Of a stretch of 30,635 nt of DNA, positions 4,636-13,301 are shown piece by piece. Below the pieces are notes generated by a model. The model saw only the letters and a list, made by a program, of their open reading frames with translations. It had not been told where the DNA came from and did no database searches. Made by a program: the position numbers and the translations under genes. Within the stretch, counting starts at the first letter, position 1. Each line of letters starts with the position of its first letter. Source of the stretch: a virus; IMG/VR virus record IMGVR_UViG_3300010149_003499, positions 1 through 30,635 of that record; one strand, given 5' to 3'.

Positions 4636-5430
4636 TTATCTCGTAAACTTTAACACGCAACGACAATTAATTGTCAAGCCCGGAGGGGCCAATGGGTCTT
4701 TCGGAAATCTAATCGGAGTCCCATCCACATAAAAGGCACTACTAACAGGGACTTTATCACCGTGTAACTGTCGATGACTGATCCGCACGCTCTCGTCCTT
4801 CAACGAAATCCACTCTTTGTTCAGACCAGTATCGGCACTAGCAGCAGAATCATACAGTCCTTGGTTATATGGGCCAAGAACAGCCGAGTCTACAATCATA
4901 GATTTGCGATTACTTCGCAATTTATTGAAAACTGCTTTAATAAGCACCGTAGCCAAAATAATCTTGAAAGTAATGTTTAGATCATTACCGTCCTTGTCAC
5001 GCCCTAACGATGCAGAGGCCAAGGAAACTTCAACTTGATCCTGTGTCGTGGAGTTGAAATTGTTTACCGTGGCTAGGTGCTCAGAGATTGCGGCATCTGC
5101 CTGCTCTGCGGTTACAGATTCCCCATAACCTTCTTCTATATTGTCAGAAATCGCCTGCTGGTAAATGTCTTTCATTGAGTCTGTGAGAGGGATGGTACTT
5201 ACAGCTAAAGCCGACATGGGGACAATTGAAGCGAAGTTGGCGTCTTCCCCTAATGTCAGTAAAGCTGATGTGGCCTGCGTGTTAATGGCATCAAGAACTG
5301 TCTGCTCTTGAGCGTCAATAATAACGTCTAACTGCTTAGACAGTTGATCTTCTAACGACTCAACCCTGTATAGAGCTTTTTCTTCCCAAGTTGTGTATCT
5401 ACCTAGGTCACCAAACTTTAGACCTGCTGA
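4636..5430 (-). CDS. MuF-type head morphogenesis protein, probably made as a portal-MuF frameshift fusion
   Basis: The C-terminal part matches the phage Mu gpF / SPP1 gp7 head morphogenesis domain: KEWISLKDESVRISHRQLHG, the PxDPxAPPG region and the terminal INCRC. This protein is usually a minor head component associated with the portal. An ATG exists at 5217, but the same frame is open for 71 further codons upstream. That upstream part reads like genuine protein (RYTTWEEKALYRVESLEDQL, DAQEQTVLDAI) and contains no ATG, GTG or TTG. It overlaps the end of the portal gene in the -1 frame, where CCCTTTT sits. I therefore give the start as the first codon after the proposed shift. The fusion would be about 749 aa (485 portal residues plus 264). 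The alternatives are initiation at ATG 5217 (193 aa), which lacks a good ribosome site, or use of a rare start codon. Confidence 0.82.
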   Translation of the reverse strand, partial: SAGLKFGDLGRYTTWEEKALYRVESLEDQLSKQLDVIIDAQEQTVLDAINTQATSALLTLGEDANFASIVPMSALAVSTIPLTDSMKDIYQQAISDNIEEGYGESVTAEQADAAISEHLATVNNFNSTTQDQVEVSLASASLGRDKDGNDLNITFKIILATVLIKAVFNKLRSNRKSMIVDSAVLGPYNQGLYDSAASADTGLNKEWISLKDESVRISHRQLHGDKVPVSSAFYVDGTPIRFPKDPLAPPGLTINCRCVLKFTR

Positions 5431-6884
5431 AAAGGGGCACTCTTCTTACCCTCCGCTTCATCGCCTTCTAATTCGCTTGGAACTTGTGATGCAGAAGCTT
5501 CAATATTTTCAGTACCTGTTACAGTACCTGCTTCAACAAAGCCGCCCTCTTCTGGGCTAAACTCTGTGACCACGGACTGTTGAGCATTTTGTGCCTGAAC
5601 ATCTAACGGCACACCCTCTTCGACAGTACCCTGATCATTCATGGGCTTTTCTGTATTTGCAATTGGGGTCTGGTTCGGGTTAGAAAGGAGAGAGTCCGCA
5701 ATGTCAGAAACAACCTTTTTCCTGCCGGACGCTTCACGGTATTCATTGGCACTAATCAAGCCAGTCTGAAACTCTGTCAGATGGTGACGCTCACGCTCTT
5801 GCTTAGCGAGGACAAGAATGGGAACGTTGTTCACATCAAAATCCACAAAGAAAGAGTCGTCAATCTTATCAAAGGAACGAGCAATCAAGTCAAGGTGCGG
5901 AGACATGGTTTCCATCCAGAAAACCTTACCTTCCTCCATAGCGTTAGAGAAAGTCCTACCAGACGAGTTACCGATGATAGACTCAGGTACACCAAACGCA
6001 GCAAGAATCTCTTCTTTTGTAATAGTACGCATCTGTACGTAAGCAGCATCTCGTGGACTCGCAGCAGTGTCTACGAAATCTGCACCGTCATCCGATGAGA
6101 TGACACCAACCGACCCTGCACGACCAATATTGCCACGGAACCGGGAACGAAGTTCCTCTTTATCTTCGTCAGCAATCTCACTACGAAGAACCAACAGCCC
6201 GCCCGGTCGTCCATCGTTAATCAAGAAGTTACGGTTATAAATCTTAGCCAAGTTCTCTAGCTCAATAGCAACACCCGCTGCCTCCATCGGAGTCATAGAT
6301 AGATAAGGGTCTAGTGGATGCGGGCGGCGAATCCAGATAACGTTCTCGGGTTTAATAGTACGCTTCTCCATCGCACTAATCTGAACCTCAAACCCCTTCA
6401 CAAACTTGTTTACATCGGGAATGGGCGAAGTGTTCTGTGGGGGTAGCAGATGTAACGCAATAGGCTTACCGCCACGTCCTCTAACAATCTCAACAAAGAC
6501 ACCACGGCTACTAATCAGCAACTGCGAAGATAAACGATACCTGAAGGCAAAAGCGTTCTCTCCGTCATTTGCAGTGTTGTTGAACAATTTCAACATAGAG
6601 TGATCCCCGACAACCTCACCAAACGGATTGTTGTCTTTGCGGAACATCATAGGTAGACGTGCCTGGTTTGATGAAATAACATCAATACAGCGGAACACCC
6701 AAGTAACCTTAGACACACCCTCTTTATAAGCCTTAGTGATATCCCAACCATCGTGATACCCACGATCATTGCCGGTCAACGACGGGCTGTACGAGACTGG
6801 TGCGCCTACCGAAACAGAAGCAGCCTTTTGCTGCCCCGAGATTGCATCTTGAAGAGATTTATTTGAACTTGAGTTCCACGCCAT
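5418..6884 (-). CDS. Portal protein (HK97 type)
   Basis: 488 aa. The region VTWVFRCIDVISSNQARLPM near residue 60 is typical of HK97-family portals, as are the following elements ending in EEILAAFGVPESIIGNSSGR, the segment that precedes the portal stem and wing. The portal forms the dodecameric ring through which DNA is packaged, and it binds the terminase. The start ATG at 6884 overlaps the stop of the upstream 52-aa membrane protein (TAATG), indicating translational coupling. The C-terminal 90 residues are a Glu/Gln-rich low-complexity tail (EEGVPLDVQAQNAQQSVV) that leads into a likely -1 frameshift onto the MuF frame. Terminase is divergent rather than adjacent in the same operon, which is less usual. 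Confidence 0.92.
   Translation of the reverse strand: MAWNSSSNKSLQDAISGQQKAASVSVGAPVSYSPSLTGNDRGYHDGWDITKAYKEGVSKVTWVFRCIDVISSNQARLPMMFRKDNNPFGEVVGDHSMLKLFNNTANDGENAFAFRYRLSSQLLISSRGVFVEIVRGRGGKPIALHLLPPQNTSPIPDVNKFVKGFEVQISAMEKRTIKPENVIWIRRPHPLDPYLSMTPMEAAGVAIELENLAKIYNRNFLINDGRPGGLLVLRSEIADEDKEELRSRFRGNIGRAGSVGVISSDDGADFVDTAASPRDAAYVQMRTITKEEILAAFGVPESIIGNSSGRTFSNAMEEGKVFWMETMSPHLDLIARSFDKIDDSFFVDFDVNNVPILVLAKQERERHHLTEFQTGLISANEYREASGRKKVVSDIADSLLSNPNQTPIANTEKPMNDQGTVEEGVPLDVQAQNAQQSVVTEFSPEEGGFVEAGTVTGTENIEASASQVPSELEGDEAEGKKSAPFQQV
5430..5454 (-). promoter_or_regulatory. Candidate programmed -1 ribosomal frameshift signal
   Basis: On the coding strand, CCCTTTT occupies 5436-5430 and fits X_XXY_YYZ in the portal frame (C CCT TTT). 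Slipping back one base gives CCC TTT and enters the MuF frame. The zero-frame stop TAA lies 9 nt downstream (5420-5418). GGAGGG at 5454-5449 lies 12 nt upstream, the spacing at which an internal Shine-Dalgarno sequence is known to stimulate -1 shifting in E. coli dnaX. The -1 frame is closed upstream by TAA at 5448-5446, so MuF has no start of its own there. The recoding event itself is inferred. Confidence 0.65.
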
Positions 6885-7048: not shown

Positions 7049-7077
7049 ACTGTACCGTTTATTTGTCTAGGAGACAA
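7049..7077 (-). promoter_or_regulatory. Promoter of the portal operon, leaderless type
   Basis: On the minus strand TTGTCT (7077-7072), 17 bp, TACAGT (7054-7049), then exactly six bases to the ATG at 7042. It overlaps the ribosome-binding region of the divergent terminase gene. A plus-strand TATACT at 7046-7051 overlaps this -10 and may serve terminase. Confidence 0.6.
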
Positions 7078-7083
7078 GCAGAT

Positions 7084-8400
7084 ATGTCCACAGAGACTCC
7101 CGACTGGGAAAAAATCAAAGCATATTTAGAACCAAAGCGATCTGAATACTGGGTTGAAGAACCCTCGCTAACTCAAAAAGTTTTTCTCCGGTCAGAAGGA
7201 CAAGAAGTAATGTTTGGTGGAGCCGCAGGTGGGGGCAAATCCTCGGCACTGATTATGGCCGCTCTACAATACGTGGACATCCCAAACTACAGTGCTATCT
7301 TGTTTAGGCGCACATACGCTGACCTTGCCCTACCTGGCGCTCTAATGGACCGTTTCAGAGAATGGATTATGCAGTTTGATGATGTACACTGGAACGCAAA
7401 TGCGTACACTGCAACGTTTCCCAATGGGGCACGAATAACATTCGGTTACCTAAATAACATCAACGACTATCTGCGATACAAGGGTTCAGAGTTTCAGTTC
7501 ATCGGAATGGATGAGGTTACCGAAATCAGAGAAGCAGATTACCGGTACATGTTCTCACGTTTACGCCGCCCCGCAAGTGGTCCGCTAGCTTCAGTCCCTC
7601 TCAGAATGCGCTGTGCAACTAACCCTGCACCTAACTGGGTCCGTCAGCGTTTCCTAGTTGAAGGTAAAACCAAGGGACGTATCTTTATTCCCTCAATGCT
7701 AACTGATAACCCCGGAATTGACCCAGACTCCTACCGCACCATGCTCGCAGAGCTAGACCCCATCGAACGAAAGCGCCTAGAGTTTGGTGACTGGTGGGCA
7801 ACCACACTCGGATCAATGTTTGACCGTGGTAGCTTTGAGGTCATTGAACCAAGCGAAATGCCGGACTTGAGTAAAGACACAACTGTGGTGCGCTTCTGGG
7901 ACTTAGCCGGAACTGAACCGTCTAATTCTAATCCTGATCCTGACTGGACAGTTGGATGCCTCGGAGCATTTGATAACGGTGTCTTTTACATCCTAGATGT
8001 ACGCCGCATTCGTGCGAAAGGTGAAAAAGTTGAAAAGTTTATTAAAGAAACTGCTGAAGAGGACGGGCCTGAGATAACAATCCAGATGGAGCAAGAACCA
8101 GGATCAGCAGGTAAAAACTTAGTGGACCAATACGCTCGGTACGTCCTGCCAGGCTACACCTTCTCAGGGCAACGAGCCACAGGCGACAAAGTAACAAGAG
8201 CAAAGCCATTTGCGGCGGCTGTAGCTAACGGTAACGTGCGTCTAATACGAGGCGACTGGACCACAGACTTCATTGATGAACTGTCGTCCTTCCCCGAAGC
8301 ACGAGTCCACGACGATCAAGTTGACGCCGCCACCCACGCCTTCAACCTGTGCGCCGGACTCGGTATGGGCATTCGCCGCAAGATTGAAATCATCATCTAG
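7084..8400 (+). CDS. terL: Terminase large subunit
   Basis: 438 aa. The ATG at 7084 is preceded by AGGAG; an in-frame TTG at 7063 is less likely. The N-terminal ATPase has Walker A GGAAGGGKSS (residues 45-54), FRRTYADL (adenine-motif or arginine-finger region), Walker B QFIGMDEVTE, and a coupling motif (CATNPAP). The C-terminal RNase H-like nuclease begins VVRFWDLAGTEP (first catalytic Asp) and ends RVHDDQVDAATHAF (last catalytic Asp). It cuts concatemeric DNA and powers packaging through the portal. The length is normal. No small subunit gene is recognisable nearby. The 3' end overlaps the convergent methyltransferase gene by four bases with no terminator visible. Confidence 0.96.
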   Translation: MSTETPDWEKIKAYLEPKRSEYWVEEPSLTQKVFLRSEGQEVMFGGAAGGGKSSALIMAALQYVDIPNYSAILFRRTYADLALPGALMDRFREWIMQFDDVHWNANAYTATFPNGARITFGYLNNINDYLRYKGSEFQFIGMDEVTEIREADYRYMFSRLRRPASGPLASVPLRMRCATNPAPNWVRQRFLVEGKTKGRIFIPSMLTDNPGIDPDSYRTMLAELDPIERKRLEFGDWWATTLGSMFDRGSFEVIEPSEMPDLSKDTTVVRFWDLAGTEPSNSNPDPDWTVGCLGAFDNGVFYILDVRRIRAKGEKVEKFIKETAEEDGPEITIQMEQEPGSAGKNLVDQYARYVLPGYTFSGQRATGDKVTRAKPFAAAVANGNVRLIRGDWTTDFIDELSSFPEARVHDDQVDAATHAFNLCAGLGMGIRRKIEIII

Positions 8401-10800: not shown

Positions 10801-11322
10801 CTAAGCTTGCTCGGAATGACCCGTGGGCCGTTCGATGTGAAGGTCTTCACCGTTTTTGGATTCAATAGGAACCCACGCAGGGGAATACGTGTGCTGTTTA
10901 ATTTTACGCATCTTGATCAGTGTCCCATCCAGCAACACATCAAACTCGTCGTAGGTCATGCCTAACTTTGTGCGTAATTCTTCTTCGGTATAGCGCTGTG
11001 ACTGCATAACACGCTGCATCAACCTAGACAAATATTTGGCAATCACAATCCCACGGTATCTGTTCATGTCAATGTGTAGCAGTACAGCTTCCACGTCGTC
11101 ACACTTCACTACAGCAACAGGAACCTTTTTAATCTTCAACTCGTTTGCAATAATCCAGCGATGGTACCCGTCAATGATTGTACCATTCTTCTGAATTACA
11201 ATTGGACTGAGAATACCGTATGTGTCTATAGACGATAATAGCCGCTTGTAGTCGGGTGCAACAATGTAACACGCAGACGACCACTTCGCAGGGGTTAACT
11301 CAGAGGTTTTACAATAATCCAT
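10801..11322 (-). CDS. ParB N-terminal-domain protein (downstream of PP-loop gene)
   Basis: 173 aa from the ATG at 11322 (MDYCKTSELTPAKW), 10 bp after the PP-loop gene's stop. The alternative ATG at 11370 overlaps that gene by 38 bp and lacks a ribosome site. It has a ParB/sulfiredoxin-like fold: LLSSIDTYGILSPIVIQ, the conserved turn GTIIDGYHRWIIANEL, and KVPVAVV, then MNRYRG. The C-terminal half (SQRYTEEELRTKLGMTYDEF) resembles a helix-turn-helix-containing region. ParB-domain proteins bind DNA or nucleotides (CTP/ATP). The pairing with a PAPS reductase-like protein resembles the IbrA/IbrB pairs of enterobacterial mobile elements. Exact role unknown. Confidence 0.78.
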   Translation of the reverse strand: MDYCKTSELTPAKWSSACYIVAPDYKRLLSSIDTYGILSPIVIQKNGTIIDGYHRWIIANELKIKKVPVAVVKCDDVEAVLLHIDMNRYRGIVIAKYLSRLMQRVMQSQRYTEEELRTKLGMTYDEFDVLLDGTLIKMRKIKQHTYSPAWVPIESKNGEDLHIERPTGHSEQA

Positions 11323-11332
11323 TACCGTTACT

Positions 11333-12505
11333 CTACCGAGTGTCGTCTTGAATGTCAAGACTGTCCGCATCCATTAACTGCTGAGTCTCTTCGTCTAATA
11401 GCGCAACACGTTTATTGTGCGCCTTTGTTTTAGGGCCAACCGGGCTAGGGGAACCCATGAAAGAGTTTAAAAGCAAAGTTCTAATCAAATGATCTACTGG
11501 ATACCCGTATGAATCTGTGGCGTGCTTCTTCTTGAAGTTGTTGGCATACACCAATGCAGCCCTATGAAGACCTGGTGTTAGCACATTATCATCAACGCAG
11601 TGCTTGACGCCCTTCCATCCTTCGGCAGCGTAAAAGTCAATAGCCGCCTCAATATCGTACTCTGCCCACAACTGACGCTGTGCCTCAATACTAGGGAAGC
11701 ATCTATACAGTTCATCATAGAAGTCAGGTTCAGTGCGCAAAACATCCGACAGACGGCGAGCAGCCACTGAATGAAGAGGGATACCCACCCGCTGATTAGC
11801 CCCACTCATCGCTGCGTAATCGTAATAGTCGCAGTACTCCCCGTCATGCTCTTCGTGGATGAACTTAAGAACATCGTCAGATGTCCAGTCATAGATTACC
11901 TTAGCGAACCGCATTGGGATGGCCTTGGAAAGTTTGAAAGGTCGGTTGATATAGTTTTCATTCAACTTCTGTGTCACTGTCCGGTAACGGATCATAGACT
12001 CATTAGCCCGGATTCCAGTGATAAATGCCGTTCGCCCTTTCTTACCGTGCATGGTATACTCGTCAATCTTACGGGGAATTGCCTTCTCTGGGTTTAACCC
12101 AAAGTGCTCTGCCCTAAGTGACCCTTCAGGAAAAGGTCTGAACAAGCGCCCACTACGCTCTCGCTTCTTTGACCACAACAATACATATTGTCTGCGCCCC
12201 AGCACCCACAACTCTTGACCTTGAGGCAAACAGTACCACTCCATGTCAACCCAGTCGTAGTTGCTGACACGCTTTACATAGTCCTCTACCGCAGGAGAAA
12301 GCATTTCTTCATCCCGGAAGATTACTTTAACTGGCCCAAGCCCACGTTCTTCATGAATCTCTTTTGCAAGATACAAACATGCAGTAGAATCCTTGCCACC
12401 ACTGAACTGAACACAGACTGTATCAAACGTGTCATAGACATGGCGCATCCGCTCTCTCGCAGCCTCAACACAATTTATGTCTAGAAACATTCGACGCCGT
12501 GCCAT
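11333..12505 (-). CDS. PAPS reductase-like PP-loop protein (IbrA-like)
   Basis: 390 aa. The ATG at 12505 (MARRRMFLDINC) follows the upstream ParB stop by one base (TGA-C-ATG) with GAGG ahead of it. An in-frame ATG at 12565 would overlap by 59 bp. The PP-loop is VQFSGGKDST near residue 35. FRDEEMLSP follows, then ITGIRANESMIRYR and VIYDWTSDDVLKFI, all in the arrangement of CysH/IbrA-type adenine-nucleotide alpha-hydrolases. The family activates substrates with ATP and may transfer sulfur or reduce sulfonucleotides. The IbrA/DUF3440 branch has no settled reaction. DndC of DNA phosphorothioation is a related PP-loop enzyme. It lies between two ParB-domain genes. Confidence 0.85.
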   Translation of the reverse strand: MARRRMFLDINCVEAARERMRHVYDTFDTVCVQFSGGKDSTACLYLAKEIHEERGLGPVKVIFRDEEMLSPAVEDYVKRVSNYDWVDMEWYCLPQGQELWVLGRRQYVLLWSKKRERSGRLFRPFPEGSLRAEHFGLNPEKAIPRKIDEYTMHGKKGRTAFITGIRANESMIRYRTVTQKLNENYINRPFKLSKAIPMRFAKVIYDWTSDDVLKFIHEEHDGEYCDYYDYAAMSGANQRVGIPLHSVAARRLSDVLRTEPDFYDELYRCFPSIEAQRQLWAEYDIEAAIDFYAAEGWKGVKHCVDDNVLTPGLHRAALVYANNFKKKHATDSYGYPVDHLIRTLLLNSFMGSPSPVGPKTKAHNKRVALLDEETQQLMDADSLDIQDDTR

Positions 12506-12506
12506 G

Positions 12507-13301
12507 TCAGCCTCGTGGAGAGTGTTGAGCAATAAAGTCCAGAAGACGCTCTGAAGTGGTGTCACCGTCGTAAGCAGGCTGATCCTTTAACCACCGTAAA
12601 AAGGAATACCACTTTGACTGCTGATCAGCATTCTCAAACACGAGAGTGAACTGAATAGCAGCGTTCTTTGTCCCTGAACTACCTGTAACAGTGCTGCCCT
12701 GTGTGACAATACTCTCTGTCGATGCAGTTGGGGTTAACGTAGTCGGGTCGGATGCAGGACGGTCAACACTCGTCGGAGTCTGAACTGGTTCTGTGGAAGT
12801 AATATCATTAATAACAATCTCGGGCGGAGTCCAACCCCCATTCGGATCAATCACTTCTCCAAGCTGATCAGCAATTACACTGTTTTCAATAGCAGCAACT
12901 GAAAAGTCGTCCCATCCTAGAACTTCAAAAAAGTCTTCATGATCACCGATGGCATCTGTTAGCATTTCGTAGAGTAAGTCGTTGTCGGTTACACCCAACT
13001 CTGAAATCCGGTTGTCTGCCAGAGCAAACGCCAACGCATCTGTTGTTGACATATCAACAACAGACACCGCAATCTGTTGCCAGCCCAATCGCTTTGCTGC
13101 CTCTAGTTGGTGGTTGCCCGCAATCACCGTAAGTTCACCGTTATCGCCCGTAACAGCGACAATAGGCTTCACCTGCCCGAACTTAGAATACGACGCCATA
13201 ATTGCGTCTACGTCTCCTCGTCTTGCATTGTTTTCCAAGGGAATAAGTAAGTCGATGTCTACAGCAAGCCCCTGAATGTTCTCAGTAATATTGTGAATCA
13301 T
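12507..13301 (-). CDS. ParB N-terminal-domain protein (upstream of PP-loop gene)
   Basis: 264 aa. ATG at 13301 with AAGGA seven bases upstream, directly abutting the methyltransferase stop. It has a classic ParB/Srx domain: LIPLENNARRGDVDAIM, SKFGQVKPIVAV, the LTVIAGNHQLEAAKRLGW turn, then FALADNRISELG and a Glu/Asp-rich helix. A Ser/Thr/Pro-rich linker (about residues 165-215) leads to a C-terminal domain (FTLVFENADQQSKWYSFLRW, SERLLDFI). This architecture is found with phage and mobile-element methyltransferases and PP-loop proteins. It is not a partition ParB because there is no ParA nearby and no central HTH module. It may bind DNA to direct the adjacent enzymes, but this is inference. 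Confidence 0.8.
   Translation of the reverse strand: MIHNITENIQGLAVDIDLLIPLENNARRGDVDAIMASYSKFGQVKPIVAVTGDNGELTVIAGNHQLEAAKRLGWQQIAVSVVDMSTTDALAFALADNRISELGVTDNDLLYEMLTDAIGDHEDFFEVLGWDDFSVAAIENSVIADQLGEVIDPNGGWTPPEIVINDITSTEPVQTPTSVDRPASDPTTLTPTASTESIVTQGSTVTGSSGTKNAAIQFTLVFENADQQSKWYSFLRWLKDQPAYDGDTTSERLLDFIAQHSPRG

Follow-up and report, generated by a model that had tools for sequence, protein, structure and literature searches.

How is the MuF protein of this virus translated, when its reading frame emerges from the 3′ end of the portal gene and continues for many codons before its first possible start? The sequence concerned is a 30,635-base viral record from IMG/VR (IMGVR_UViG_3300010149_003499), analysed over its whole length and called the window here. 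On its minus strand the portal gene, which defines the zero frame (5418..6884; 488 aa and a stop), matches Pfam Phage_portal PF04860 (E=8e-53), with portal residues 62-385 aligned to positions 2-319 of the 321 in the profile, and phrog_2662 (E=7e-57); the profile of this portal family has 717 positions and toward its C-terminal end matches MuF as well. MuF is in the −1 frame of the same strand (4636..5436; 266 aa from the slip site and a stop). It is recognized by Pfam Phage_Mu_F PF04233 (E=1e-8; 36.1 bits against a curated cut-off of 29.6) and by the head morphogenesis family phrog_2468 (E=1e-23), and its C-terminal motif RFP.DP..PP.LTINCRC is conserved in the alignment. No toxin domain C-terminal to MuF, as in the MuF polymorphic toxins, is present; the protein ends a few residues past the RFP...CRC motif and has no more Pfam domains.

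Portal and MuF are placed between terL (7063-8400, plus) and the gene for a prohead serine protease (Peptidase_S78; 4539-2923, minus), which is adjacent to that for an acidic 612-aa protein (2895-1057, minus). A DUF3721 domain is present twice, in the C-terminal region of the protease and in the acidic protein. Elsewhere in the window (10801-13301, minus), a PAPS-reductase-like gene (11333-12565) is flanked by two ParB_N-like genes (10801-11370 and 12507-13301), a set that recalls ibrA/ibrB-type pairs and adjoins MazG, DUF932 and 2OG-Fe(II) oxygenase genes.

The MuF frame overlaps the end of the portal gene in the −1 register and is open from 5445 to 4636. Read in the zero frame, the portal ends ...GCG GAG GGT AAG AAG AGT GCC CCT TTT CAG CAG GTC TAA, and in the −1 frame the junction reads ...GGA GGG TAA GAA GAG TGC CCC TTT TCA GCA GGT CTA AAG.... 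In the direction of translation, and all on the minus strand, there is an internal Shine Dalgarno-like GGAGGG (5449..5454), then a −1-frame TAA (5446..5448) which closes the MuF frame between GGAGGG and the slip site, then the slippery heptamer C_CCT_TTT (5430..5436), and finally the zero-frame TAA of the short portal (5418..5420). The first ATG of the MuF frame (5215..5217, minus), the start that a gene caller would pick for a product of 193 aa, is not conserved and is probably not the real start. It lies 71 codons past the two codons of the heptamer (PF), with no ATG, GTG or TTG earlier. From these features a sequence-only reading had proposed a programmed −1 frameshift, and what it had listed is confirmed in the letters: the 71 open codons without a canonical start, a CCCTTTT in X_XXY_YYZ phase with the portal frame, the GGAGGG 12 nts upstream of it and the zero-frame stop 9 nts downstream. 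The heptamer alone proves nothing, because CCCTTTT is common in the window (9 occurrences against 4.3 expected). Conservation carries the case.

Relatives were sought in several ways. A search with the MuF protein gave 11 loci, down to 55% identity, and the DNA pattern GGAGGGTRRGAAGAGYNNCCCTTT was found at the portal-MuF junction, with MuF in −1, in 50 of 50 contigs. Alignments of both proteins yielded a further 80 + 80 loci, for which portal and MuF frames were assigned by HMM only. By these assignments the −1 arrangement is by far the commonest class among the IMG/VR relatives, many of whose contigs are fragments and whose related sequences are not independent. Among the −1-type junctions, for which frame was the only criterion, 39 are distinct; every one of these has an in-phase CCCTTT[T/A/C], and in all 39 a −1 stop (TGA in 24, TAG in 11, TAA in 4) stands just before it. 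The base that follows CCCTTT is T in 28, A in 7 and C in 1 of 36 distinct junctions, and GGAGGG or GAGGG ends exactly 12 nts upstream in 35 of the 36 (L141 has GGAGGA at 12 nts). The zero-frame stop is less regular, being 1 to 13 codons past the heptamer, and because of this variable distance it is probably not itself a stimulator. Comparison of the junction across related phages thus argues strongly for a programmed −1 frameshift. A scan of prokaryote genomes (GTDB contigs) found no portal relative, hence no prophage or host link, and the cultured-phage collection contains no close phage, the best portal identity being about 43%.

That it is the nucleotides which are selected is indicated by synonymous codon choice in full-length portals, of which 45 distinct ones were collected through protein similarity and assigned to a class only by frame. 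They share 271 conserved degenerate columns, of which only 4 never change codon (GAG, GGT, AAG and CCT), and all 4 belong to the five such columns nearest the end, within GGAGGGTRRGAAG...CCCTTT. For four random invariant columns to fall in the last five the chance is about 2e-8 (5 / C(271,4), a calculation that does not model relatedness). This codon invariance can be explained by a nucleotide signal, but not by protein function. Loci found by protein and loci found by the DNA pattern give the same result, and the protein-only, frame-only repeat rules out a bias of the DNA-pattern search as cause of the constraint. The zero-frame AAG next after the −1 stop is also codon-invariant, though it is outside both the Shine Dalgarno sequence and the heptamer.

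By its sequence, its presence in relatives and its synonymous invariance, the GGAGGG is a probable frameshift stimulator. Shine Dalgarno sequences stimulate −1 shifts at a spacing of 9-14 nts and +1 shifts at 3 nts (PMC5009743), so the 12-nt spacing falls in the range for −1, as the comparison with dnaX made at the outset had supposed, and fits a −1 shift. No 3′ stem-loop or pseudoknot was detected, the 80 nts downstream folding no better than shuffles in 8 relatives (z-scores −0.54 to +0.84). A 5-bp stem in the window (AGGTC/GACCT) was discarded as a candidate, as the alignment shows that it is not kept in relatives. A 3′ stimulatory RNA structure, which is frequent but not obligatory in the Shine Dalgarno-stimulated bacterial type of −1 frameshifting, was therefore not found, while four other marks of that type (the heptamer phase, the Shine Dalgarno spacing, a −1 overlap without a usable start and synonymous constraint) are present. 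With no 3′ structure and a variable distance to the zero-frame stop, the Shine Dalgarno sequence alone is likely the stimulator, and since no conserved or unusually stable 3′ structure assists it, the efficiency of frameshifting may be modest.

We consider it very probable that Shine Dalgarno-stimulated −1 frameshifting gives rise to two proteins, a portal of 488 aa and a portal-MuF fusion of 749 aa. Its purpose would be to build rings in which a minority of subunits bear MuF. Pairing of the anti-Shine Dalgarno of 16S rRNA with GGAGGG would hold back ribosomes on portal mRNA, and at C_CCT_TTT both tRNAs would slip one base back onto CCC_TTT. The majority of ribosomes would keep to the zero frame and terminate three codons past the heptamer, at the TAA, yielding the 488-aa portal; a minority would shift to −1 and continue through MuF, yielding a fusion of portal residues 1-485 and 264 MuF residues (at the junction, ...KSAPF is followed directly by SAGLKFGD...). 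Portal rings assembled with a minority of MuF-bearing subunits would then carry few MuF copies into the head. What the sequences show is the signal, its conservation, the synonymous constraint and the selected, startless −1 frame; the slippage itself and its rate we infer. The fusion is a sensible product, since outgroups as well as cultured actinophages have it as an in-frame gene. The frameshift probably both limits MuF copy number and tethers MuF to the portal; covalent tethering is not universally needed, as some relatives have a separate MuF or none that is detectable. The dosing role, for which the likeness to SPP1 gp7 discussed below is the ground, is less certain than the slippage.

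On function, not mechanism, there is a rival: the frameshift may be real and yet serve mainly to vary the portal C-terminus between short and long, the dose of MuF being incidental. In L084 (IMGVR_UViG_3300005805_008308) portal and MuF are fused in frame with GGAGGG-N12-CCCTTTA retained. A −1 stop comes 7 codons later, and −1 slippage there would yield the short form, with roles reversed as in E. coli dnaX; the layout is known from a single contig, which may contain an indel error. A lineage in which no MuF is detectable continues to make a short portal. In L096, L100-L111, L123 and L125 the portal (73-77% identical to that of the window) ends ...PSES(A)L and a stop, the prohead protease following directly, and no MuF was found in eight contigs of this type (36-66 kb) searched whole. 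Both points would suit selection for the portal end as such, but the tail that the zero frame adds after the heptamer is short and variable (the 1 to 13 codons mentioned above), and the short form therefore has no conserved extra domain. As the main function, variation of the C-terminus seems rather unlikely to us.

A different product altogether would be expected if MuF were an ordinary separate gene, translated from a start codon within the overlap, by coupling or re-initiation from GGAGGG, or from the ATG at 5217 (193 aa). A GGAGGG near a gene end is typical of coupled starts, and one related lineage (L089 and L163) has a real MuF ATG overlapping the portal stop. However, the first 17 MuF-frame codons past the heptamer contain no ATG, GTG or TTG in any of the 39 junctions, and 29 of the 39 lack even a near-cognate start there. 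The first canonical starts are scattered 17-77 codons in, and an SD-like run precedes them in only 2 of 39, so that across the 39 junctions there is no conserved MuF start, canonical or near-cognate. A non-ATG start was considered and rejected, the near-cognate codons being scattered as well as absent from those 29. The frame ahead of the ATG also behaves as coding sequence. From the portal stop up to the first ATG the ratio of summed pN to summed pS is 0.26, against 0.22 downstream; this stretch is under purifying selection, and its conserved residues are predicted to be helical. In an AlphaFold2 model of MuF (mean pLDDT 82, pTM 0.82) helices 17-51 and 54-65 precede the ATG (residue 74), and the 193-aa product would lack both of these predicted helices. 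The early impression that the region makes good protein sense is thereby upheld. (No relatives of MuF with solved structures were found by sequence, and there was no significant fold match.)

Re-initiation would, in addition, leave the invariance of the heptamer CCT codon unexplained. As for the lineage with its own start, L089, L090, L091 and L163 have all lost the signal and have MuF in another frame with its own ATG. The ATG-started MuF of L089 and L163, where heptamer and Shine Dalgarno are both gone, is best taken as a replacement and not a contradiction, because MuF there is in a different frame and the signal is missing. A normal MuF start codon inside the overlap in relatives had been named in advance as the finding that would count against frameshifting; in the frameshift-type group it is excluded, no start being conserved. 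A separate MuF gene we judge very improbable.

Known sites of transcriptional slippage are longer homopolymers. Slippage of the polymerase at the C/T run, giving some mRNAs with portal and MuF in frame, would yield the same fusion protein; the run is only CCCTTTT here, though, and is often CCCTTTA or CCCTTTC in relatives, and a Shine Dalgarno sequence conserved at a fixed 12 nts would be left unexplained. This origin of the fusion is harder still to credit than a separate gene. That the break between the frames comes from faulty sequencing or assembly, or that a gene in frame, such as the outgroups have, was split by a recent mutation, deserves practically no credence and is already refuted for the group, as the same break and signal, with synonymous constraint, are shared by 39 distinct junctions from many independent metagenomes, which occur in each of the three main branches of the portal clade (47 rows).

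Ribosomal frameshifting being the preferred reading, its history can be followed on a portal tree (made by a quick method and with long outgroup branches), on which the frameshift type occurs in all three main branches of that inner clade and in-frame fusions lie outside it. The outside set consists of L209-L215 and the cultured actinophages Gilgamesh, GMA6, Hanem and DalanDe, in keeping with the earlier remark that some actinophages have portal-MuF fusions. Cantare also has one long ORF but without a match to the MuF profile. By parsimony the distribution suggests that an in-frame fusion changed once to a frameshift fusion. At the in-frame junction of L212, L213 and L214 a perfect inverted repeat of 8 bp (TATCAGCC...GGCTGATA) is closely followed by an in-phase CCCTTTC, and a −1 stop comes 5 codons later; this is possibly another site for making a short portal, or chance.

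The signal is also found beyond the family. A looser pattern gave 77 contigs, the new ones being mostly of the same family; in three others the zero-frame tail is short and the −1 ORF long. One of these, L224 (IMGVR_UViG_3300043331_001325), has GGAGGG-N12-CCCTTTT in a distant portal that the family HMM had missed (phrog_2662 E=7e-61). The stop is 11 codons past the signal, and the −1 ORF of 212 aa has, by eye, a cysteine-rich MuF-like C-terminus but no PHROG match. In the relatives of L224 that were examined (up to 60% identical) the signal is absent, so that the case is one sequence. Two large phage contigs, L234 (9208-9230) and L239 (3001-3023, minus), which measure 187 and 189 kb, carry this signal (GGAGGGTGAGCAGCG..CTCCCTTTA) where an ORF of about 390 aa without assigned function ends, and a conserved 126-aa extension is in −1. 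This ORF is a candidate for another frameshift gene.

A close mechanistic counterpart is E. coli dnaX, which likewise combines an in-phase X_XXY_YYZ heptamer with an internal Shine Dalgarno sequence at −1 spacing and makes a short and a long product from one gene (PMC5009743). It differs in that the zero frame at portal-MuF leads to the short product and the shift to the long one (reversed in L084, and a reversed dnaX arrangement is known in a few bacteria; PMC5009743), in that no 3′ stem-loop was found at portal-MuF, and in that the gene is for a phage portal and not a polymerase subunit. Tail assembly chaperones of the lambda G/GT type also have a −1 shift that joins a phage morphogenesis pair into a short and a long form (PMC7911831, PMC7302621), whereas portal and MuF belong to the head module, where terL and the prohead protease are their neighbours. 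The capsid-protein frameshifts of T7/T3, Lactobacillus phage A2 and Listeria phage resemble the present one in producing a minority of C-terminally extended virion protein (PMC5009743), but there the major head or tail protein is extended by a domain, Ig-like or other, and not the portal by MuF. The in-frame actinophage fusions (Gilgamesh, Gordonia Bendigovirus, Microbacterium clusters EA3/EA5/EA8/EB) have the same two domains in the same order (PMC7302621); there every portal subunit bears MuF, and here only the frameshifted fraction would.

For function, a close comparison is SPP1, where the portal, gp6, and the MuF protein, gp7, act together; a few copies of gp7 enter the procapsid through portal binding, and gp7 is dispensable for assembly but raises infectivity (PMC6316719). 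In SPP1 the genes are separate and the binding non-covalent. A minority-subunit model would match SPP1 gp7, and would agree with the existence of relatives whose MuF is separate or undetected. The likeness to retroviral Gag-Pol, where a structural protein acquires a minority cargo by frameshifting and the packaging ratio is set in this way (PMC5009743), is one of logic only, the viruses, signals and proteins being unrelated.

Shine Dalgarno-stimulated −1 frameshifting, frameshifts in phage structural genes and in-frame portal-MuF fusions are thus already known (PMC5009743, PMC7302621). The PRFect paper mentions that its unexpected calls in SEA-PHAGES genomes include MuF-like genes, but the portal-MuF case is not described there (PMC10885494). 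Our literature search, of open-licence full texts, turned up in-frame portal-MuF fusions and other phage frameshifts, and no frameshift at portal-MuF, which accords with the expectation that a fusion made in this way would be unusual.

The usual picture of a portal is a ring made of 12 identical subunits. If a conserved frameshift gives MuF to only some of them, rings should be mixed and translation should set the dose of MuF that a head receives, and the role and copy number of MuF become directly testable. More tentatively, and as a proposal that may well not hold, two portal forms in a set ratio could be what is kept, by different routes: most members would shift to −1 to reach the long form, L084 to reach the short form, and L224, from a portal family far removed, would make use of the same signal, the ring being a mixed oligomer with few MuF-bearing subunits and the cargo dosed in the manner of Gag-Pol. 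In the window, automatic gene calling would report a MuF cut down to 193 aa and overlook the fusion. With in-frame fusion, frameshift, separate gene and loss among its members and neighbours, the clade offers a natural series.
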